Shown here piece after piece: positions 1,637 through 53,490 of a stretch of DNA of 64,000 nt; the stretch's first letter is position 1; the number at the start of each line of letters is the position of its first letter. The stretch covers positions 13,822,501 through 13,886,500 of the forward strand of contig NC_003280.10 in the NCBI RefSeq assembly GCF_000002985.6, read 5' to 3'. The stretch comes from Caenorhabditis elegans. Its lineage: Eukaryota; Nematoda; Chromadorea; Rhabditida; Rhabditidae. The notes beneath the pieces were generated by a model, which worked only from the letters and a program-made list of their open reading frames with translations, had not been told where the DNA came from and did no database searches. Position numbers and translations under genes: made by a program.

Positions 1637-2270
1637 AATATAATCCGGCTTGATTTCTAATAAATTTGTATTGTTGTTTTTTGTCATTGTGTATTGAATA
1701 TTTCTCGAAATATTGTGATGAATAAAATTATATTACTCAGTTTTTGAACATATGTAGATTCAAATTGAAACAAATTTAATATGATTGTAAATGCAAGGGA
1801 CAACTTTAAGTGTTTATTCTATACTCTTCTTGGACCCGATTTTTTTTGTGTTACGCTTTAGCCGTTGTTAAGTTTTCATTGCTGTAATGTTTGTTCATAT
1901 AAGACAGACCATAGCAGGGAATTCTTCATCGAAGGTTTTACGGCCAGGACTTGACTGCAATTCGAAAAAGCTTGAAATTCATATTAAAATCTGAATATAA
2001 TTGAAGCGCGTATCAAATCAGAAAATGCCCTATTACTTCATGAATAGCATTCATATCATTTATGAATGCTCTTTATTCGAGCTACAGCATTTATAAATAA
2101 ACTAGAGAATGCATTAAAAACACAGTTTTTCATTTCAAATATCGCAGGCACGACAGAACTGAAGACAATTTGCTAAAAATGGAAAACAAAACTGATAAGA
2201 AGTATTGACTTTTTATCAGAGAATAAAACATTGAATTTATTATAAACGTTGATTTACATGGGATATTATC
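1637..2270. other. Spacer of the histone palindrome
   Basis: This 634-base AT-rich stretch separates the palindrome arms. No coding region or RNA gene is visible. Bases 1637-1705 match the reverse complement of the 3' flank of the third H3 gene (5644-5712), so the left part belongs to the ancestral H3 3' flank. Confidence 0.7.
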
Positions 2271-2278
2271 ACATTTGT

Positions 2279-2294
2279 GGCCCTAAAGAGGGCC
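2279..2294 (-). terminator. Histone mRNA 3' stem-loop of H3
   Basis: Mirror copy of the element at 1613-1628, serving the minus-strand H3 at 2349-2759. Confidence 0.95.
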
Positions 2295-2348
2295 GTTGGG
2301 TTCGGTTAGATTTTGAGATCAAGCTGGCTCAGTACCATTGGAAGGCAT

Positions 2349-3343
<995 letters not shown>

Positions 3344-3386
3344 GTCCTCTTGCTTCCATGCAATCTACCAAACTACCGAACCCAAC

Positions 3387-3402
3387 GGCCCTCTTTAGGG
3401 CC
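3387..3402 (+). terminator. Histone mRNA 3' stem-loop of H4
   Basis: GGCCCTCTTTAGGGCC lies 44 bases after the H4 stop and is flanked by CCCAAC and ACAAA. Confidence 0.95.
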
Positions 3403-4173
3403 ACAAATATTCTGAATCCAATTATGAATTGTTCTTTTAATAAATGTCTTTCTTTTTACTTATTTTGTTTTAAAATCTTTAACATTTTAAAGCTGGAGGT
3501 CTGCAGTACAGACTCTGTACTCAGATTCATATGTCGTCATAGCTCTTCGATTCTATCTGACTATGATGCATTTGATGACATCACGCTACCTGTTTTCAGT
3601 AGACAGTTATAAAACAGGTGCGAAGACGGACTGTGTTCCCCTCTCAACTCATTATGACGTCACACTAGCTGCTCCTTTGTGTAGTTATATACGTATTACA
3701 AATAATAGTCACCCGTCTGAAGGCTCTGGTTAATTTCTGATTGCTGTTCACTGCACTCTTTTTAAGTTTTATTGGATCCAAATCTTTATAATTCAGGTTT
3801 ATATGTAAATATTATCGGTAAAATATAATTGTAAGTGACGAAACCAAACGTTCCAATGAAAATATATTTTTTAAAAAGCATGCTCAATAGTGCTTATGGA
3901 CCAATTGGCCCGGTAACCGGCATCCCAGAACACGTAAAAAGTTACCCTACTGCTTTTAAATCTCTATTACATGCTGAAGGAAGGTATTTTAATAAATGAA
4001 TGCATCACAAAAAATAGTCTGAAATATAAGTTTGTTTTTAAATTGCTGTTTGCTGTAGCGTTTGTATGCATAATGAAATAAATAATGTCTGTAAAATCTA
4101 ATTATTAAAACAGAAACTCCCGATGCAAATAATATTTATCAACAAGAAGAATATTCGGATTTTTGTCATGTGT

Positions 4174-6450: not shown

Positions 6451-6792
6451 ACCGCTGTGAACTGGCTTCAAATGTTGCCTTTTGCAAACTTTCCCTGATT
6501 TTAAGAGTGGGATTCACAAACATGCTGGAAACTTGTTTGAATATTTTTTTGAAATAAAAAATCAAGTAAGTTTTGTCTGAAAAACGAAACTCCTTAATCA
6601 TCTGAAATTGTTCCCAGGTTCACATAGCATCTTAAAACCAAGACTAGACGGTAAGAAAACTATTCGAAAGAAATTTTCCAATCGTTTATGTCCGCTAAAT
6701 ATATATTGAAGAGAAGTGAAGTCTTGAAGTGATTTCAAATATCCTGAATCTACGTAGGTTTTGGTATTGTTAACACTTTGTAAGCTTATTTT

Positions 6793-6991
6793 GTCCCCTC
6801 GGGGACTGGGCCGAGCCCGGCAGCAGTGCAACGCCAGGACGACCCTTGGGAAGTCGGAGCAAGCCCCGAGTCTTCCCTAGGTTCCAAAAATCATATAACC
6901 TTTATTACACTCATTCGAGTGTATACCGTAGGTTAATACGATAAGAACAGATACTACACTTTGATCTTAGCTAATAAGCCGAAGAAGCGAT
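6793..6991 (-). ncRNA. U2 spliceosomal snRNA (copy 1)
   Basis: The RNA begins ATCGCTTCTTCGGCTTATTA, as U2 does, and contains GTGTAGTATCTGTTC, which pairs with the intron branch point. It also has an Sm-type site (GATTTTTGGA) and the GC-rich 3' stem-loops ending CCCCGAGGGGACA. The three copies in this window look identical through the RNA. The 3' end is approximate. The 300 bases before it (6460-6790) show no other feature. Confidence 0.96.
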
Positions 6992-7110
6992 ACTGAATGG
7001 AGGAGAGGGTAGGGGTAGTGGGGAGTGGTGTGCCGACAACTCATGGGTGCGCGTGTGACACTATGAAATGACGGAGGTGTAAAGAGAGTGAGAGAGGCGC
7101 AGACATTGAA
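6992..7110 (-). promoter_or_regulatory. U2 snRNA promoter with proximal sequence element
   Basis: The minus-strand block CCCATGAGTTGTCGG at about 7034-7048, roughly 45-60 bases before the RNA start, recurs at the same distance upstream of the other two U2 genes. It is the likely snRNA proximal sequence element. Homology with copy 3 extends past it through TGTCACACGCGCACCC and CACCTCCGTCATTTCATAG, whereas copy 2 diverges soon after the element. Confidence 0.75.
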
Positions 7111-13243: not shown

Positions 13244-13422
13244 AGGGAAATGCTTACAATTATGACCTATGGGTCACGTCTTTTACGTGGAGTGTCAATT
13301 TGGGAATAAGTTGAGTGACTTTTCTTATAGTTTTTAAAGGCCAAGTTAAAATTGAATGTCTATTTAACAACTATACTTTATTTTTTGAAAATTGATTTTT
13401 CACTATTCTGCAAGCTTATTTT

Positions 13423-13621
13423 GTCCCCTCGGGGACTGGGCCGAGCCCGGCAGCAGTGCAACGCCAGGACGACCCTTGGGAAGTCGGAGCAAGCCCCGAG
13501 TCTTCCCTAGGTTCCAAAAATCATATAACCTTTATTACACTCATTCGAGTGTATACCGTAGGTTAATACGATAAGAACAGATACTACACTTTGATCTTAG
13601 CTAATAAGCCGAAGAAGCGAT
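13423..13621 (-). ncRNA. U2 spliceosomal snRNA (copy 2)
   Basis: Looks identical through the RNA to the copy at 6793-6991: 5' ATCGCTTCTTCGG, branch-pairing GTAGTA, Sm-type site and the same 3' stems. The promoter matches to the proximal element (CGAGTTGTCGG, about 13663-13676) and then diverges, so this copy has an independent distal promoter. It lies between ins-37 and the 444-residue gene. Confidence 0.96.
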
Positions 13622-13690
13622 ACTGAATGGAGGAGAGGGTAGGGGTAGTGGGGAGCTGTGTACCGACAACTCGTGGGTGCGCGTGGAGCA
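13622..13690 (-). promoter_or_regulatory. U2 copy 2 promoter
   Basis: Shares CACGAGTTGTCGGTACAC and the CCCCACTACCCCTACCCTC tract with the other U2 genes. The polypyrimidine block lies between the proximal element and the RNA start. Confidence 0.7.
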
Positions 13691-29810: not shown

Positions 29811-32729
29811 ATGCAAAATCGCCTTTTGATATTCTCACTGCTATTCATCGGCTCAGTTCTCACTCAAGATGAGATTCAGGATAATTTTGTGGAATTTAAT
29901 GAAATCGGGCCAGGCGCTGGGATTAGTTCGACCTCTAAGCCACCACCGGACCCATTTGCGGATATGATGAATGAGCAAAGTTTGGATGAGAAGCTCGATG
30001 AGTTGGATGTAGAGTCACAGGAGATTGTGATTGACTATGTGAGACATGGAAGGAAGTTTTATGGAGATGTAAGTTATTATGCTCCGCCCCCTTAGCCTGG
30101 GTCTCGTTAGGTATTGTTTGCACAAAACCGAGTTTCTTTCAAACAAGTGCATGTGTGCCTGGCAACCAGCCCCTGTCTGCGCCTCCACTCTCTCCCTACA
30201 CCTCCGTCATTTCATAGTGTCACACGCGCACCCATGAGTTGTCGGTACACAGCTCCCCACTACCCCTACCCTCTCCTCCATTCAGTATCGCTTCTTCGGC
30301 TTATTAGCTAAGATCAAAGTGTAGTATCTGTTCTTATCGTATTAACCTACGGTATACACTCGAATGAGTGTAATAAAGGTTATATGATTTTTGGAACCTA
30401 GGGAAGACTCGGGGCTTGCTCCGACTTCCCAAGGGTCGTCCTGGCGTTGCACTGCTGCCGGGCTCGGCCCAGTCCCCGAGGGGACAAAATAAGCTTGAAA
30501 AGTGTGAGAGGCCCATAAAGAAAATATTAACAAAAGGAAAAACGCCGAACTTCAATACTACTTTTAGTAGAAGTTTGGTTAAACATTCATTTTGGAATAG
30601 CTTGCTGAGAAGTTTTTTCAAGAAATTTGAAAAGTTACAAAGATAAAAGTAAACTTTTAAAGTTTCACATTTTTCAGCTACGTAGACGTTTAATCCTCTA
30701 CGTGATGAAGTTCTCACCGGTACAAGCGATGGTTAAGGAGTCTGGCAGTGGATCTCAAATTCAGAAGGTACTAGATACTAGCAATATACAATTCACTGCA
30801 ACTTTTTTCGAACGAGGGACGAGGCAAAAAGGTTTCTAGGCCATGGCCGAGTCCCCGACAAGTTTCAGCGGCCATTTATGTTGCTTTGTTTTCCGCGTGT
30901 TTTCTTGTGTTTTTCTCCAATTTTTCCCGTTTTTTCTTACCAAAACTGATAAATAAATATTTTTTGCAGATGCTAAAACAATTTCTAAGTGAAAAAATTG
31001 TGTATTCAGTCGGCAAGTAGCGGTGAAAGTGGACGATGTAATATGATGATTTACGGGAATACGAAACCTAAACGTTTTCCCAAACATGATACATATGCTG
31101 CTCTGATGCTGAAACTACCTGATTTTCATAACGAGACCGCTGAAAAAGTTCTGAGGTTTTCAAAATTCAACTTTTTTGGTGAAAAAGTCGAGAATTTCGA
31201 ACAAAATGTTGAATATTGAAAACCTCAAAACTTTTTCAGCGGTCTCGTTATGAAAATCAGGTAGTCTCAGCATCTAAACAGCATATGTATCATGTTTGGG
31301 AAAAAGTTTGGGTTTTGTATTCCCGTAATCCATCATATTACATCGTCCACTTTCACCGCTACTTGCCGACTGAATACACAATTTTTTCACTTAGAAATTG
31401 TTTTAGCATCTGCAAAAAATATTTATTTATCAGTTTTGATAAGAAAAAACGGGAAAAATCGGTGCAAAACACAAGAAAACACGCGGAAAACAAAGCAACA
31501 TAAATGGTCGCTGAAACCTGTCGGGGACTCGGCCATGGCCTAGAAACCTTTTTGCCTCGTCCCTCGTTCGAAAAAAGTTGCAGTGTATACAAATCGAAAT
31601 TGTTAATTTTCAGATCGAAAAAATCAAGTACCGCTTTCGATCTGGGCTCCGGATTAAGTACTCGGCGTTGAAATCGGTAGGATTTTTTGGAGAGGGGATA
31701 GTGAAAGTCTAGTGGTTTAAAAGTTTTCAAAGATGTTTGCCTACCTCTTAACACCTCCAAATCACTTAACATTTTCTTTAAAAAACTGACTTTCCAGCAA
31801 ATTTACGGGTGTTCAGAAATTCGTGAGAAAAAAAATTAACTGCAAAAATAATTTTTTTTTCAGGTTGAATTTTCAAGCGTTGAGTTAGGCCGCCTAACTT
31901 TTTGTTATAGCTATACATAGCTAAAAATTGAAAAAATGACAGAAAAAATTTTGGAATTACTTTTAATATTCGAAAATGAAATCAAAAATCCAGAAACAAA
32001 TATAGATGTCCCTTTAAAAAACGATTTTCTGTCAAATTATAACTCAAAAGATACGCTTTTAAATTTTTAATTTTTTTTTAAACATAAAAACAACAACTGT
32101 ATTAAAAATAAAACTCGATTTTACAAAAAAATCGAAGAATCAATAATTTCCATTAATCTGTCGAAAAAAGTCAAAAACATTTTTTTTTTAATCCAAAAAA
32201 AAAAAATTGAAAAAAGCGAAAAAATCACGTGGAGTCAGAAAGTCCCATTTCGTTTTGATCTTCGAAAAATGCGGGAGGTTAGACGCAGACATCTCAACTG
32301 ATTTTGCATGGTTAAGAGCGTGCTGACGTCACAATTTTTCTGGGAAAAAAACCCGCATTTTTTGTAGATCAAACTGTATTGAGACAGCCTGACACCACGT
32401 GAAAAATCAATAATTTCCAGCGAATCGACCGGCTCGTCGCCCACTTGCTTGCCCCGATCTTCGCCCCATTCATGCTTCTCCAACCTGAAGAGATTCGCCC
32501 TCTCTTCGCCGCCCAACAACCCCAACAAAAAGAGCCCGTGACAGTGCCGCCACAAGAGATCACTCAGCCACAGAGCAGCTTTACAGCTCTCGAAATATTC
32601 CCCTCATATCTGCCACAGGACAAATGGCCCCAGTTCGATCAGAGATGGATGAATCCACAGCCGACTCAGTTCTCAGTTCCTTCGTTTACTCCGTTTTACC
32701 AGCCTTTCCAGTATTATCGCTCTTATTAA
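29811..32729 (+). CDS. Secreted protein of unknown function (239 residues)
   Basis: Four exons: 29811-30068, 30678-30767, 31614-31676 and 32421-32729; all in phase 0 with GT..AG junctions. The protein starts with a signal peptide (MQNRLLIFSLLFIGSVLTQ). An acidic stretch (DEKLDELDVESQEIVIDYV), a basic middle (LRRRLILYVMKFSPVQAMV, KIKYRFRSGLRIKY) and a Gln/Pro/Phe/Tyr-rich end (FTPFYQPFQYYRSY) follow. I do not recognise the family. The ATG immediately follows ACATTTTCAG, an ideal trans-splice site. AATAAA lies at 32752-32757. Intron 1 contains a whole U2 snRNA gene on the same strand, intron 2 a 792-base foldback element and intron 3 a miniature element. Confidence 0.85.
30130..30286 (+). promoter_or_regulatory. 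U2 copy 3 promoter within the intron
   Basis: CCCATGAGTTGTCGGTACAC at about 30230-30249 is the proximal element. Homology with the promoter of copy 1 continues upstream (GTCTGCGCCTC, CACCTCCGTCATTTCATAG, TGTCACACGCGCA), showing that the whole promoter was duplicated. Confidence 0.75.
30287..30485 (+). ncRNA. U2 spliceosomal snRNA (copy 3), nested in an intron
   Basis: Same sequence as the copies at 6793 and 13423, from ATCGCTTCTTCGGC to CCCCGAGGGGACA. It lies on the same strand as its host gene, inside intron 1, and has its own full promoter. Confidence 0.96.
30785..31594. mobile_element. 792-base foldback element with long inverted repeats
   Basis: The element is 30794-31585. It begins CACTGCAACTTTTTTCGAAC and ends with the exact complement; each arm is about 370-390 bases and nearly identical, leaving a small central loop. 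Flanks TATACAATT (30785-30793) and TATACAAAT (31586-31594) look like a 9-bp target duplication with one change. Long inverted ends and 9-bp duplications suggest a Mutator-like origin. There is no transposase. It lies in intron 2 of the secreted-protein gene. Confidence 0.8.
32220..32407. mobile_element. CACGTGG-ended miniature element, copy 3
   Basis: The element is 32226-32401 (176 bases): CACGTGGAGTCAGAAAGTCC on the left, GACAGCCTGACACCACGTG on the right. AAAAAT is present on both sides. The interior matches copies 1 and 2 (GTTTTGATCTTCG, TGACGTCACAATTTTTCT). In intron 3 of the secreted-protein gene. Confidence 0.88.
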
Positions 32730-45400: not shown

Positions 45401-48400
45401 ATTTTCTGCCAAATTCTGTAGAAATTTTCTGACAATTTTACAAAAATTTCACTCATTTTTTCTATCAATTTGGGTAAAAATTTCGGCAATTTTCAAGCAA
45501 TTTTGGTCAATTTTTTGGCAATTTTTCTTAATTTTTGCACTATTTTCAGTCAATTTTCTACTAAAACTTTGAAATTTTTACTTCTAATAGGCCTACTCAA
45601 GGCTCTACGTCTCCTTTTTTCTAAATAAGATGGTGATCCAATATCATGATCTTCCTCCGGCACAAGAGCATCAATCGCCGGAATCGCAATTTCCTCTGTT
45701 AAATGAGCCGGTTTCGGGTTGGGACGAGCTTTTAAAGTGCCAACTTTTAGTGGTTGACCATCCATTAGACCGGCTAAAATTAATGGAGTTGGTGTCCAAG
45801 TGTTAAGAAATGATGAATTAGTTGCTGCAGATATTGGAAGTGAGCTGAGGGGTTTTAGTAGGCCACGGATTCGTTCTGATTGATCTCCATCGGAGAGAAG
45901 CCGGAGAAATGCGTCGTCAGAGTAGAATTGTCTGAAAAATTTGAATTTCAGTTGGGAAAAAATGTGGGGGAAAAATTATAGGAAAATCGGAAAAATTGAG
46001 CGAAAATTTTTTTTTGGAATTTTTTTTTTTTTTTGGCAATTTTCTGTCAATTTTGGTCATATTTTCAGCCAATTTTCTTCCAATTTTTGCCAATTTTTTC
46101 AGAATTTTCTGCCAATTTTCAAGCAATTTTGGTCAAATTTTCGGCAATTTTCAGTCAATTTTGGTGATATTTTCAGCCAATTTCGGCAAAATTTTACAGA
46201 ATTATCAGCCAATTTTCTTCCAATTTTGGTCAAATTTTGGTCATTTTTCGGCTTTCGTGTTGGCAATTTCACAGAATTTTCTAGAAATTTTGGTCTTATT
46301 TTTTTTTGGCAATTTTCCTCCAATTTTGGTCAAATTTTCGGCAATTTTTTCAGAATTTTCTTCCAGTTTTGGTCAAATTTTGGTCATATTTCTGGCAATT
46401 TTCTGCCAGTTTTCTGGCAATTTTTCGTCAATTTTGGTCATATTTTCAGCCAAATTCGGGAATATTTTACAAAATTTTCTGCCAGTTTTCTAAAAATTTT
46501 CAAGCAATTTTGGTCTGGTTCTTCGGCGATTTTCAGTCAATTTTCTGCCAATTTTGGTCAAATTTTGGTCATTTTTCGGCTTTCGTGTTGGCAATTTCAC
46601 AGAATTTTCTAGAAATTTTGGTCTTATTTTTTTTTGGCAATTTTCCTCCAATTTTGGTCAAATTTTCGGCAATTTTTCAGAATTTTCTTCCAGTTTTGAT
46701 CAAATTTTCAGGCAAGTTTCAGTCAATTTTAGTCAAAAATTTACCGAATTTTGAGCCAATTTTCAAGCAATTTTGGTCAAAATTTTGGTTCTGAATTTTT
46801 TGAAAATTTAAAAATGAGAATTTTTAATTTTTATCTGAAAATGAGTATTTTTTTCTTTTTTTTTGGATAAAAATTGAAAATTTTCTGCCAAAAATTAAAA
46901 AATCGATTTTTGTTAATTTTTCAAAAAATGTACAATTTTCATGATTTTTTTGCCGAAAAATTTCACAAAAAAGCGCGAAAAAAACTGAAAATTGGAATTT
47001 TTTGGGAATTGTTCAACAAATTTACTGGTATTTTTTTTTTGTATTTTCCTGTAATTTTTGCACATTTTTTGCGATTTTTTTTCTCAATTTTCCGTCAATT
47101 TTCGGGAATTTTGTGATTTTTGAGCAGCTTTCACTACAAAAAATTTAAAAATCGTCTTTTTCTAGTAAATTAACCATTTTTTCTCACATTTTCGTGATTT
47201 TTTAGTGAAAAATTGAAAAAAAAACGGTGAAAAAAAAACCGAAAATTATGATTTTTTGTTTTTTTATTTTATGTAATTTTTGCTCATTTTTTGCGATTTT
47301 TTCCCAATTTTTGTTCAATTTTCCGTAGATTTTTTCCAGTTTACTGACTGAATAGCAGTCGCCTCAGCGGCCAGTAGATCTAAATACTGTCCCAGTGCAT
47401 TTTCATTCAACACAATTCGAATCCAGGCCCGGCTTTTTCCAATTTCACTCCGAATTTGTCCGAGGCAAGCGATTTGGCTGGTTATCGATCGATGCGAGAA
47501 TTTCGAGACAAATGGCCAGAAATTCTGCAAAAAAATTCTGATTTTTAAGCAGTTTTTTCAGAATTTTTTCATGATTTTTTGAAGAAAATCGGAATTTTTC
47601 GCTTAAAAGATGGGGAATTTTATTGAATTTTTCGATTTTGAGGCAGTTTTTTCACATTTTCAGAAAGAAAATTTTTTTTGATTTTTTTTTGCTGAAAAAA
47701 CTGCGGATTTTCTGATTTTCAGGCATTTTTTCATAATTTTTCCGCTTTTTTTTCGATGAAAATCGGTATTTTTCGCTTAAAAAATGCGAATTTTAATTGA
47801 ATTTTCTGATTTTTAGGCAGTTTTTTGCACAATTTTCTGGAAAAAATCCATTTTTTCTTAATTTTTTGCTGAAAAAATGCGGATTTTGTTGATTTTAGGC
47901 AGTTTTTTCATAATTTTTCGCTCAATTTTCAAATTTTTAGGCGGTTTTTTTTCATATTTTCAGAAAATTTTTTCAGAAAGAAAAATGTTTTTGATTTTTT
48001 TTTGCTGAAAAAAACTGCGGATTTTCGGATTTTTAGGCAGTTTTTTCATAATTTTTCCGCTTTTTTTTCGATGAAAATCGGAATTTTTCGCTTAAAAAAT
48101 GCGAAATTTTATTGAATTTTTCGATTTTTAGGCAGTTTTTTTCACAATTTTCTGGAAAAATCCATGTTTTCTTAATTTTTTGCTGAAAAATGCGGATTTT
48201 GTTGATTTTAGGCAGTTTTGTCGTAATTTTTCACGGTTTTTCCATTAAAAAACCGGAATTTTTCGAATTTTCGGGGTTTTTTTTTTTGCATTTTTTGCTG
48301 AAAAACTGCGGATTTTCGGATTTTTAGGCAGTTTTTCATAATTTTTTCATGATTTTCGATGAAAATCATTTTTCGCTTAAAAGATGGACAATTTTATTGA

Positions 48401-49401
48401 ATTTTCTGATTTTTAGGCAGTTTTTTCATAATTTTTCGCTTAATTTTCAAATTTTTAGGCGGTTTTTTTCATATTTTCAGAAAGAAAAATTTTTTTGATT
48501 TTTTTTGCTGAAAAACTGCGGATTTTCGGATTTTTAGGCAGTTTTTTCGTAATTTTTCCGCTTTTTTTTTTCGATGAAAATCGTTATTTTTCGCTTAAAA
48601 AATGGGAAATTTCTGATTTTTAGGCAGTTTTTTTCACAATTTTCACGATTTTTTGCTAAGAATCGGAATTTAAATTTTATTGAATTTTCGGATTTTTAGC
48701 CAGTTTTTTCATAATTTTTCACGGTTTTTCTATTAAAAAACCGGAATTTTTCGAATTTTCGGGGGTTTTTTTGCATTTTTTCCGGGAAAAATGCTCACTG
48801 GCTCTGGATATTTGGCATATCTTGTTCCTTTTAAGAAAAATGGGTCTCGTAGTCCGTGAATGAAGATTGCTTCGATCGAATTGCACAGATTTTGGGTGAT
48901 TTCGCTGAAAATGGGGATTTAAGCTGAATTTTCACATTATTTGGCAGTTTTTCTAATAAAAATCGGGATTTTTTGAATTTTTGTCGATTTTCTGAGATTT
49001 TTTCCACAAAATTGTGAATCGTCACGGCATTTTTTGAGTTTCTATCAATTTTTTTTTTTTTTTTTCAATAAATTTTTTGAAAAAAGTGCAAAATTGTACC
49101 GATTTCCCTCGAATTTTACGCTATTTTATGAATTTTTCCCCGAAATTCCATTGATTTTATCGATTTTTATAGAAAAAATTCGATTTTTAATGATTTTGCA
49201 CGATTTTAGTCAATTTTCTTCGATTTTTAATGATTTTCAACTCAATAAAAACCAAATTTACCTCGGCACATTCTCCCTTTTCGAGTGCGGAGAAGCTATA
49301 GCAGCCTTCACAACATTATCAAGCTCCTTTTGCAAATCCGCACGGATTTTCTCCTGTTTCAGTTTCTGAGCCGGTGTTAATTGGGGGGGCGCTGAGGCCA
49401 T
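33482..49401 (-). CDS. RUN and Rubicon-homology domain protein, PLEKHM1-like
   Basis: Eleven exons: 49401-49262, 48904-48799, 47524-47349, 45931-45582, 43884-43445, 41590-41230, 40350-40220, 36298-36221, 36166-35781, 34853-34328 and 33625-33482, giving 945 residues in one frame. Residues about 45-200 form a RUN domain (NLCNSIEAIFIHGL, FWPFVSKF, SRAWIRIVLNE). Residues about 260-690 are Ser/Glu-rich and disordered. Residues about 700-935 are the zinc-binding Rubicon-homology domain (CAMC, YYCTEC, IPARVVMDWDW, CTLCKQKGFCCELC, FHVECW, CPKC). This pairing is typical of PLEKHM1-type Rab7 adaptors of late endosome, lysosome and autophagosome fusion; no PH domain was seen. The exon 3 donor (GTCAGT) was chosen to keep frame. 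A trans-splice site lies just before the ATG. Confidence 0.88.
33715..34325. repeat. CTACAGTAACC tandem repeats in the last intron of the RUN-domain gene
   Basis: More than 20 copies of CTACAGTA(A/T), spaced irregularly with AAAATTTGAACCC linkers. They fill almost the whole intron between the last two exons, inside the stretch encoding the zinc-binding domain. Confidence 0.88.
34935..35013 (-). repeat. Interstitial telomere-like repeat, opposite orientation
   Basis: About 80 bases of GCCTAA units (TTAGGC on the minus strand) with a few variants, in intron 9 of the RUN-domain gene. Confidence 0.85.
36360..36880. repeat. TATACATGTGTATA-type satellite in intron 7
   Basis: An alternating purine-pyrimidine region rich in ATACATGTGTATATATTATA, a self-complementary repeat. 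It resumes at 37187-37250 on the far side of an inserted miniature element. Confidence 0.8.
36879..37191. mobile_element. CACGTGGTCGCTGG-ended miniature element
   Basis: The element is 36885-37185 (301 bases), with inverted ends CACGTGGTCGCTGGCTGTC and GACAGCCAGCGAGCACGTG. CATTAT is duplicated on both sides (36879-36884 and 37186-37191). The interior includes two GACGCAGA/TCTGCGTCTC stretches in opposite orientation. There is no coding capacity. It interrupts the TATACATG satellite. Confidence 0.9.
37247..37356. mobile_element. Decayed hAT-like miniature element
   Basis: 37255-37348 starts CAGGGATGGGCGGC and ends GCCGCTCACCGCTG. Flanks TTAGACAT and TTATACAC match at six of eight positions, fitting an aged 8-bp duplication. 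Third full relative of the elements at 17650 and 28186. Confidence 0.65.
37400..37800. other. Unique block in intron 7, unassigned
   Basis: GC-richer sequence with ACCCGATAGCGATAACGCGC and a hairpin GTAGAGTGGTGGTTATCATTG/ACCACTAC near 37586-37615 that faintly recalls the sbRNA loop. No promoter elements of the sbRNA type were seen, so I do not call an RNA gene. Confidence 0.3.
37805..37860. mobile_element. Half copy of the CACGTGG-ended element
   Basis: CACATGGAGTTAGAAAGTCC, then CATTTCGCTTTGATCTACAA and AAAATGCGCGGGAG match the left half of the copy at 32226. The right half is missing. Confidence 0.7.
37870..38120. repeat. AAGGATCCTAAGGATCTTAT tandem repeats
   Basis: Units of about 10-21 bases built on AAGGATCYTA; three near-perfect copies of AATAATCCTAAGGATCTTAT at 38041-38110. 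The region runs into the end of the open frame at 38087-38476. Confidence 0.85.
38087..38476 (-). CDS. Possible nested gene or alternative exon (129 residues)
   Basis: An open frame on the minus strand inside intron 7 of the RUN-domain gene, same strand. It encodes MRIRRASPLEPIFSSDMVAT..., then a Glu/Arg/Ser-rich helical stretch (EEEDEALERIRSLSKRL, DVVSDVKDSLFRKFVKSTL). Base composition is coding-like. Two readings fit: a small single-exon gene, or an extra in-phase exon ending at GTGAAGTG before a GTAGGT donor at about 38176. The only acceptor available for the second (CCTTGAAG) is poor. No family is recognised. Confidence 0.45.
   Translation of the reverse strand: MRIRRASPLEPIFSSDMVATTSVFDTMTQEEEDEALERIRSLSKRLSSIASSAGGGRRSSLLADVVSDVKDSLFRKFVKSTLSLVTTMRKEEKRSVKELFCEVVGGSSFRSCFGSNLRTRILIRSLGLL
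39040..40070. repeat. GCCGAATTGCCGAGATTCTC tandem repeats in intron 7
   Basis: Units of about 75-90 bases join TTGCCGGAATCAAGTAGAAG, TTGCCGAATTGCCGAGATTC and AAAATTTTTTGGAAATATTGCC. At least ten units are present, and 39590-39650 and 39656-39715 are almost identical. Open frames up to 198 residues here are artefacts. Confidence 0.88.
40440..41225. other. Intron 6 of the RUN-domain gene
   Basis: AT-rich low-complexity sequence, no feature beyond GAATTTTCTGA-like repeats. Confidence 0.5.
41990..45560. repeat. TTTTCGGCAATTTTCAGCC tandem repeats in introns 4 and 5
   Basis: Hundreds of short units of the form GGCAATTTT, CAGCCAATTTT, GGTCAAATTTT and ACAGAATTTTC fill the introns on either side of exon 5 (43445-43884). 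The plus-strand frames they create (Asn/Phe/Gln/Ser-rich, up to 223 residues) are non-coding. Confidence 0.88.
45980..46800. repeat. Same repeat family in intron 3, with a recent internal duplication
   Basis: 46221-46367 and 46551-46694 are essentially identical (including TTTTCGGCTTTCGTGTTGGC), apart from a few bases in a T run. This is much closer than neighbouring units, so the larger duplication is recent. Confidence 0.85.
47560..48780. repeat. GATTTTTAGGCAGTTTTTTC tandem repeats in intron 2
   Basis: Units of about 110-140 bases contain GCTGAAAAACTGCGGATTTT, GGATTTTTAGGCAG and CATAATTTTTCGCTTAA. The same array is found at 50925-51600 in the NDUFB8 gene. Confidence 0.88.
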
Positions 49402-50370: not shown

Positions 50371-52718
50371 ATGCTCGCCCCACGCTTGATAAAGGCGATT
50401 AATGCCAGCAGATCGCTCCATCTGGCAAGAATCATGTCCAGTGAGTTTTTCGGCTTTAAAAAAATGGATTTTCCTTCCAAATTCAACGAAAATTAAAGAA
50501 AAACGAAGCTCATTTCCAGTGCGCGGACCTCTAACCTTCGACGGCTGGTACCCACGTGATCACAAGCCAAGCGCGCCGCCAACAAACGAGGAAGAGCGTC
50601 GCGCCGCCGCCGTCAAATACGGCCTCAGACCAGAAGACTATCAATCAATGGACAAAGACGACGTGATCAAGTTCGCCGGAGACTATCCAGACCTCGGTGT
50701 AATCACCTACGACCACAAGGATCCGTATGAGGCGTGGACCGATCGGCAGAATCGCCGGAATTGGGGAGAGCTCGTGCCGATCGATATGATGCGCTATCGA
50801 GGCGATCGTCTCACGTTTACAGGCCTCGAGGCGGAAGATTACACCACGTAGGTGGAGGAGAAAAATGCTATAAAAATGAAAAATTTCGAGACAAATGGCC
50901 AGAAATTGTGCAAAAAATAGCAATTTTATTGAATTTTTCGATTTTTAGGCAGTTTTTTCATAATTTTTCGCTTAATTTTCAAATTTTTAGGCGGTTTTTT
51001 TTCATATTTTCAGAAAGAAAAATGTTTTTGATTTTTTTTGCTGAAAAACTGCGGATTTTCGGATTTTTAGGCAGTTTTCTCATAATTTTTCACGATTTTT
51101 TGATGAAAAATGCGAAATTTCAATGAATTTTCTGATTTTTAGGCAGTTTTTTTCATAATTTTTTCATGATTTTTTGATGAAAATCGGAATTTTTCGCTTA
51201 AAAGATGGGCAATTTTATTGAATTTTTCGATTTTTAGGCAGTTTTTTCATAACTTTTCGCTTAATTTTCAAATTTTTAGGCGGTTTTTTTTTCATATTTT
51301 CAGAAAAATTTTTCAGAAAGAAAAATGTTTTTGATTTTTTTTTTGCTGAAAAAACTGCGGATTTTCTGATTTTCAGGCATTTTTTCATAATTTTTCACAA
51401 TTTTTTTTCAATGAAAATCGGTATTTTTCGCTTAAAAAATGGGTAATTTTATTGAGTTTTTGGATTTTTAGGCAGTTTTTTCATAATTGTTCGCTTAAAA
51501 AATGCGAAATTTTGTTGAATTTTCTGATTTTTAGGCAGTTTTTCAAAATTTTTCACGATTTTCTGACTAAAAACCGGAATTATTGAAATTTTCAGGGTTT
51601 TTTTTTCCAATTTTCACGAAAAATGCTCACTGGCTCTGGATATTTGACATATCTTGTTCCTGTTTTTGAAAAAAAAATGGGTCTCGTAGTCCGTGAATTT
51701 TGAATTGATTTTTTGCACAGATTTTGGGTAATTTCGCTGAAAAATGTGTATTTTATGGGTTTTTGGGCAGTTTTTTCCATAATTTTTCACTATTTTTAGG
51801 TAAAAATTCGGAATTTCTGATTTTCAGCCAGTTTTTTTTTCATTATTTTCTCCGATTTTCTAATAAAAAAGCGAATTTTTCGCTGAAAAATGCGAATTTT
51901 AGTCCAATTTTCTGATAAAAATCCGAAAATTCGCAGATTTTTCGGGTAATTTCGCCCTAAAACTTAAGTTTTTCATAATTTTCCCCGATTTTCTGATAAA
52001 ACTCCGAATTTTTTCCCTTAAAAAAGTGGATTTTCGTATTTTTAGGCAGTTTTTTTCATAATTTTTTGAAAAAAAGAGGAATTTCTCGTATTTTGGCTAA
52101 AAAAATGACGAATTTTTTTTGATTTTCCTGAAATTTCATTGATTTTTTTTGAATTTCTCGTCGGATTTTCCACAGGTTTTTTAAATTTTTTAAAGGATTT
52201 TTCAGTTGATTTTCTGAGATTTTTTCACTAAATTGAGAATTTTCGTTCGATTTCCTGGAAATTTTTTTGACATTTTTCAAATTATTTACTGATTTTCTTG
52301 CCTCTTATTACGGGTTTTCACCGATTTTTAGCGAAAAAATCTACCGATTTTATCGATTTCGTATCTCTCGGATTTTCTTGAATTTTTGCAGCGATTTTTA
52401 GTATTTTCGGTGAAAAAAATGTGGATTTTCTAAATTTTGCGATTTTTTTTTAATTTTCGGATTTTTAGGCTGTTTTTTTTTGTTTTTTTTTTCTAATTAA
52501 TTTATCCAATTTTCAGCTGGAACTCGATCGTTATGTGCCTCCGCGTGCTCGTACCGATGGCTCTCCTCGCCTGGTACTTTACCAACGAACATCCGAACGC
52601 GCTCCGTTGGAAGAATCCGGCAATGCCGAAGCAGTATTCATACGATTTCTACCGTGCCTACCCGTTCGACGATCCACGCAAATACCCAATTGTCAACTAT
52701 TCGTTTGATTTGGAATAG
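50371..52718 (+). CDS. NADH dehydrogenase 1 beta subcomplex subunit 8 (NDUFB8)
   Basis: Three exons: 50371-50440, 50520-50847 and 52517-52718, giving 199 residues (human NDUFB8 has about 186). This is an accessory subunit of mitochondrial complex I. The start MLAPRLIKAINASRSLHLAR is a typical basic mitochondrial presequence. NDUFB8 signatures include GDYPDLGVITYDHKDPYEAW, WTDRQNRRNWGELVPIDMM and a single membrane helix (CLRVLVPMALLAWYF), then the PKQYSYDFYRAYPFDDPRKY end. The ATG follows TTATTACAGGC, a trans-splice site. I recall this gene as Y51H1A.3. Intron 2 (1.67 kb) holds a duplicated piece of the neighbouring RUN-domain gene. Confidence 0.93.
50880..51745 (-). pseudogene. Duplicated fragment of the RUN-domain gene (exon 3 edge, intron 2, exon 2)
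   Basis: 50888-50911 repeats the end of exon 3 (GAGACAAATGGCCAGAAAT, as at 47504-47523). The GATTTTTAGGCAG array follows. 51619-51740 repeats exon 2: TGCTCACTGGCTCTGGATAT, GGGTCTCGTAGTCCGTGAAT and TTGCACAGATTTTGGGT are shared with 48792-48903. The exon copy has insertions and a replaced segment and cannot be translated through. Order and orientation are kept, so it is a direct duplication of about 1.4 kb shortened to about 0.87 kb. Confidence 0.9.
51746..52516. other. Rest of NDUFB8 intron 2
   Basis: AT-rich GATTTTC/GATTTTT-type low-complexity sequence with no feature. Confidence 0.5.
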
Positions 52719-52879
52719 AAAATTCCTTAGTTTCGGTTGTTTTTTTTTTGGTAGTTTTCTCCGTTTTCTCCTTTTTTGTACTATAAAATATTCGAATTTT
52801 ATCATTTTTTTTTTTGCCTTTTTTTTGCCCTTTTTTCAGCGTTTTTAACGCTTTTATACCTATTAATTCGTTTTTTTTG

Positions 52880-53490
52880 TTGCTTAAAATTGCGCCTAAT
52901 TGAAAAAAAAATTCCTAAATTTTATATGATTTTTTGAAAATTGAAAAAGTCTCAGTTTTCACCCCTAATTCCTATTTGAATTACCGCTAATTGGATTTGT
53001 TCGATGGAGCGCGCTTGCACGTTTTTAAGTTTATTTATTTTATTTTTTGTTATTTTCCACCGATTTTCAATTTTTTTTAGTTTTCGGTGTATTTTTACAT
53101 GAATTTTAGAGAAAAAGTCAAAATAAATGCTAAATTTCGATTAAAAAGCACGCTTACAGGCGTAAAAATGACAAAATTAATTAATTTCACTGATTTCGGT
53201 CTGTACGCATGGTTTTTATTCGAAAATTTGCATTTATTTCGACTTTTTCTCTAAAATTCAAGCAAAAATACACCGAAAACATTAAAAATCGGTGGAAAAT
53301 AACAAAAAATAAATAAATTTAGAAACGTGCAAGCGCGGCGCTCCAACGAACGAGTTCAATTGGCGGAAATTCAAATAGGAATTAGGGGTAAAAACTGAGA
53401 TTTTTTCAATTTTCAAAAAATCATATAAAATTTAGAAATTTTTTTTTGAATTTGGCGTGTTTTAAAGCAATTTTCCCACTGGCGCTACGC
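52880..53490. repeat. Foldback element between NDUFB8 and ing-3
   Basis: Left arm at about 52880-53140 and right arm at about 53215-53490 are inverted copies with scattered differences (CCTAAATTTTATATGATTTT, CACCCCTAATTCCTATTTGA, GGAGCGCGCTTGCACGTTT). The right arm ends next to CACTGGCGCTACGCTACTCC. No transposase. Confidence 0.8.

Follow-up and report, generated by a model that had tools for sequence, protein, structure and literature searches.

Why does the second intron of the gene for NDUFB8, a protein of complex I, carry in Caenorhabditis elegans an antisense piece of the adjacent gene? The question is raised by a stretch of 64,000 nucleotides (nt) of contig NC_003280.10 (assembly GCF_000002985.6, positions 13,822,501 to 13,886,500 of the forward strand; hereafter the window, numbered from its first letter), in which NDUFB8, on the plus strand, adjoins a divergently oriented minus-strand gene for a RUN-domain protein, most likely the lysosomal gene cup-14 (Y51H1A.2). 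A sequence-only reading of this DNA had claimed that a part of the RUN-domain gene lies antisense within the NDUFB8 intron, and the claim is borne out by the present analysis, in which positions 50882-51753 are found to be a copy of positions 47499-48921. We assign a probability of roughly 0.8 to the view that this copy is a decayed, unprocessed partial duplicate, that is, a fossil of a segment of the RUN-domain gene, a view with which a role of the repeat array within the segment stays compatible.

The parent segment, read on the minus strand, comprises about 17 nt of intron 1, exon 2 (48799-48904, 106 nt), the A/T-rhythmic array of intron 2 (1274 bp) and the first 26 nt of exon 3, which in the gene model starts at 47524; exon 1 of the model occupies 49262-49401. 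All these blocks are found in the copy, which begins 34 bp past the 5' splice site of NDUFB8 intron 2 and extends from 50882 to approximately 51753: the beginning of exon 3 (50882-50907, minus strand), the array (50908-51630), exon 2 (51631-51736, 106 nt, minus strand) and the beginning of intron 1 (51737-51753, minus strand). The global alignment of the two segments attains a score of 1028, where 30 shuffles reach no more than 326, and contains 26/26 identities in the edge of exon 3, 642/681 in the array, 93/96 in exon 2 and 14/16 aligned pairs at the start of intron 1, although the identity of the array is flattered by the cheap gap extension, nearly half of the 1274-bp parent array being gapped against the 723 bp of the copy. 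The homology is not that of a generic array alone, given that the exon sequences match on their own: exon 2 yields a score of 127, whereas 500 dinucleotide shuffles reach at most 31, and a 36-nt piece at the edge of exon 3 yields 67, with a maximum of 29 in 500 shuffles. Elsewhere in the window, on both strands, exon 2 scores 27 at most. The order and orientation of the exon 3 edge, the array and exon 2, which the same reading had described as preserved, are indeed kept, with the qualification that the interior of the array is not strictly collinear: positions 47536-47654, which adjoin exon 3 in the parent, find their best match at 51130-51249 (95% identity), and the two longest matches, 47499-48285 with 50882-51606 and 48115-48920 with 50974-51753, overlap within the copy.

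The copied sequences bear disabling changes. The AG of the exon 3 acceptor is replaced with AC, and the copied exon 2, in which alignment under stricter gap costs gives 92 identical pairs, 4 substitutions and 5 runs of gaps, has a reading frame that is shifted in the middle of the exon and then restored, so that a middle block of 18 of the 36 residues reads differently (for instance, SRTTRPIFFSK in the copy in place of HGLRDPFFLK in the parent). By raw counts, the mismatches per aligned pair are similar in order in exon 2 (3/96) and in the array (39/681), a level consistent with an unconstrained fossil. The silent sites of C. elegans and Caenorhabditis briggsae have diverged far beyond the difference between copy and parent, and the duplication therefore probably occurred later than the split of the two species.

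The assignment of the two genes rests on the encoded domains, the chromosome and the neighbouring gene numbers. The product of the minus-strand gene matches the Pfam RUN family with an E-value of 2e-15, and cup-14/Y51H1A.2 is given as a PLEKHM1-like gene of chromosome II (PMC5345728); a search of the genome with the RUN protein returned three matches, all of them within the exons of the parent gene. The host gene (50371-52718, plus strand) has coding exons at 50371-50440, 50520-50847 and 52517-52718, which when spliced form a frame open to the stop codon; its product matches the Pfam family NDUF_B8 with an E-value of 3.6e-79, obtained with a query sequence that contained one extra T. It is most likely Y51H1A.3, which is entered as NDUFB8 in PMC2719872. 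The intron that harbors the copy (50848-52516, 1669 bp) begins with GTAGGT and ends with TTTTCAG. Beyond the copy, the rest of this intron (51747-52488) is related to the array, with a score of 173 against the array of cup-14 intron 2 compared with 80 for the best of 34 AT-rich control pieces; NDUFB8 intron 2 thus consists largely of array and exon fossil.

We infer the direction of copying, with the gene that contains the coding exon as the source, as well as the mechanism and the lack of a function. Under the favored scenario, a short-range partial duplication at the DNA level would have copied approximately 1.4 kb of the RUN-domain gene, and the duplicated piece would have landed about 3 kb away, in direct orientation, within NDUFB8 intron 2; because the two genes are divergent, the copy became antisense in its new host. 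A spliced messenger RNA was not the intermediate, since the intron is retained between the copied exons. The subsequent decay would have included the loss of the acceptor, the shift of the frame in the middle of exon 2 and the change in the length of the array, and the copy is now most probably intron sequence that splicing removes and that has no specific part in regulation. Two observations weigh against this scenario. The copied exon 2 is still exactly 106 nt long, remains open in the original phase and has both splice signals, acceptor and donor, intact, a degree of order not required of a fossil, though the event may simply be recent. Moreover, the insertion of one piece fails to explain the whole of NDUFB8 intron 2 because the related array continues beyond the copy.

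These same observations are the natural starting points of two other explanations. The array relatives that extend past the copy to 52488 would be accommodated by ectopic gene conversion, in which an array already resided in NDUFB8 intron 2 and a conversion tract from cup-14 ran on into exons 2 and 3. However, the other end of the copy begins within exon 3, with 34 bp of other sequence between it and the splice site. A possible extension of the copy deeper into intron 1 scores 68, as against maxima of 60 in 200 shuffles and 65 in 68 control comparisons. We regard conversion between the arrays as possible and insertion as the more likely event. The retention of acceptor, donor, length and phase might, for its part, be taken to indicate that the copied exon 2 serves as an alternative, functional minus-strand exon, but its location upstream of cup-14 exon 1 and the altered middle block of its reading make the chance of this negligible. 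A mobile element as the carrier of the segment was considered as well and rejected, no high-identity third copy having been found in genome searches with exon 2 and with an 866-bp stretch. The search with exon 2 and its flanks gave two candidates, both of which were scored and proved to be the parent and the copy in the NDUFB8 intron; the search with the 866-bp stretch, which passes over very common words, gave 15 matches, namely the stretch itself, five nearby, which fall in the parent array or in the remainder of NDUFB8 intron 2, and nine elsewhere, the latter only 38-257 bp long and 67-92% identical.

A contribution of the copy to the NDUFB8 transcript as a cassette exon was similarly examined and rejected. 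The motif TTTTCAG occurs eight times in NDUFB8 intron 2, as the true acceptor and seven decoys upstream of it (the mean in shuffled sequences is 1.1, and none of 500 shuffles reaches eight), but donors of the types GTAAG, GTAAGT, GTGAGT and GTATG, the only ones that were checked, are absent from the intron. The motif is also frequent in the parent array, with six occurrences on each strand, and the copied array has it five and two times on its two strands; its abundance is therefore a property of the array.

Conceivably, it is the array rather than the exon fossil that is useful. The array resembles periodic An/Tn clusters (PATCs), intronic runs of A and T phased near 10.5 bp (PMC7725773), and under this tentative possibility, which is compatible with the fossil origin of the copy, PATC-like introns would help the germline expression of both genes. 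At 10.5 bp, the T/A phasing peak in the copy is 4.36, compared with 1.62 at most when single bases were shuffled (20 shuffles), and the corresponding values are 3.61 for cup-14 intron 2 and 5.81 for the rest of the NDUFB8 intron; PATC-rich introns shield transgenes from germline silencing, according to PMC7725773. The measure employed here differs from the published PATC score, however, and the values for the copy, for cup-14 intron 2 and for the remaining NDUFB8 intron sequence were reached by 7, 9 and 4 of 260 control pieces, respectively, these controls being 750-bp pieces from 20 genome stretches that were unmatched in base composition and shorter than cup-14 intron 2. Furthermore, PMC7725773 states that PATCs occupy 6-10% of the genome and that artificial introns rich in PATCs gave no such protection, and PMC6417860 reports higher, not lower, PATC density in WAGO targets. 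Within the window itself, a rhythm stronger than that of either intron (7.83, near 11 bp) is found at 46000-47330, in AT-rich DNA with 11-bp tandem units. The PATC-like nature of the array may nevertheless explain why introns tolerate or retain such DNA, and the exon fossil need play no part in this.

The antisense position of the copy gave rise to a further proposal, namely, that the two genes could form sense-antisense RNA pairs. With a direct-orientation partial copy inside the NDUFB8 intron, the NDUFB8 pre-mRNA would be antisense to cup-14 RNA, and the predicted complementarity of the two pre-mRNAs holds at the level of sequence: the duplex predicted to form between 171 nt of the copy and 161 nt of the parent, exon 2 included, has an energy of -183.9 kcal/mol, compared with -62.4 kcal/mol for a 138-nt control from exon 1 and -299.7 kcal/mol for a perfect partner, transcription of both strands being implied by the gene models. 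The idea that this pairing in trans might seed endogenous small interfering RNAs (siRNAs), 26G and then 22G, against cup-14 appears, nonetheless, improbable. There are 312 positions of the parent segment at which a 22-mer is perfectly represented in the copy, and intron-targeting small RNAs are mentioned in a passage of PMC6417860. Most of these 22-mers, however, belong to the array, and among exons 1-3 of cup-14, exons 2 and 3 contain five perfect ones each and exon 1 contains none; the copy is intronic, so the antisense RNA would be confined to the unspliced transcript and be removed with the intron. Endogenous siRNAs mostly hit exons only, according to the same paper. In addition, neither cup-14, nor Y51H, nor NDUFB8 is mentioned in the main text of PMC3213143, and the openly accessible papers that name Y51H1A genes include no small-RNA study, to judge by their titles. 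A hairpin between copy and parent is ruled out as they are direct repeats. A regulatory role of the pairing between NDUFB8 and cup-14 RNA stays a hypothesis, and the chances seem slimmer still for its most specific form, in which the antisense fossil would pair with cup-14 pre-mRNA in the nucleus and recruit an RNA-dependent RNA polymerase, such that the speed of NDUFB8 splicing would set the level of siRNA against cup-14. If true, this would be a natural instance of the trigger that was proposed but left open in PMC3213143.

A palindromic repeat (52880-53166 and 53194-53470) begins approximately 160 bp downstream of the end of the NDUFB8 reading frame; its arms are complementary over 133 nt at 89% and over 95 nt at 84%; the predicted fold of 52870-53480 has an energy of -321.5 kcal/mol. 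Because an arm of this repeat matches many places in the genome (at least 79 matches, counted in 40 scored candidates out of 452), the palindrome is a member of a repeat family and separate from the duplication. If a transcript reaches it, it would be a better source of double-stranded RNA than the copy.

Partial duplication of genes is not exceptional in C. elegans: as cited in a passage of PMC3449122, partial duplicates make up 63% of the detectable spontaneous gene duplications in mutation-accumulation lines. Like the partial duplicates described by Katju and Lynch, as presented in that passage, the segment analyzed here is a copy of part of a gene made at the DNA level, with an intron included and both breakpoints within the gene; the published sets, though, consist of gene pairs with reading frames, whereas the present case is an antisense fossil in the intron of a neighbor, and it is, accordingly, a new example of a frequent class of duplication. 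The antisense pseudogenes that are sources of siRNA in mouse oocytes, as they appear in the part of PMC3213143 concerned, resemble it in being broken copies, and the copy would likewise be transcribed antisense to its parent, but those pseudogenes have a transcript of their own, and the antisense RNA here is an intron. The targets of the 26G siRNAs of the ERGO-1/ERI-6/7 pathway, as described in the same source, also involve duplicated DNA with nucleotide homology, but both genes of the present locus encode conserved Pfam domains; in relation to both systems, the case described here is known from sequence alone. The duplication is absent from the titles and abstract beginnings of the open literature on Y51H1A.3, Y51H1A.2, cup-14 and Y51H1A, a paper on editing-enriched regions does not concern the locus, to judge by the beginning of its abstract, and the locus is absent from the passages concerned in a paper on segmental duplications (PMC2728738). 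A small antisense partial copy between neighbors provides a clean site at which the proposed siRNA trigger could be tested with a single deletion; if the deletion changes nothing, the locus would still be useful, both as a negative case and as an illustration of how an intron grows from pieces of a neighboring gene.

Repeats of other kinds were observed elsewhere in the window. An inverted repeat (1-1646 and 2261-3906, 99.8% identical) contains frames that, by eye, look like histones H3 and H4, and a further copy, 100% identical, starts approximately 3.4 kb before the window, the set being a putative histone cluster. A dispersed repeat is present at 6773-7105, 13409-13685 and 30174-30505, its copies in the window being 97.0-99.6% identical.
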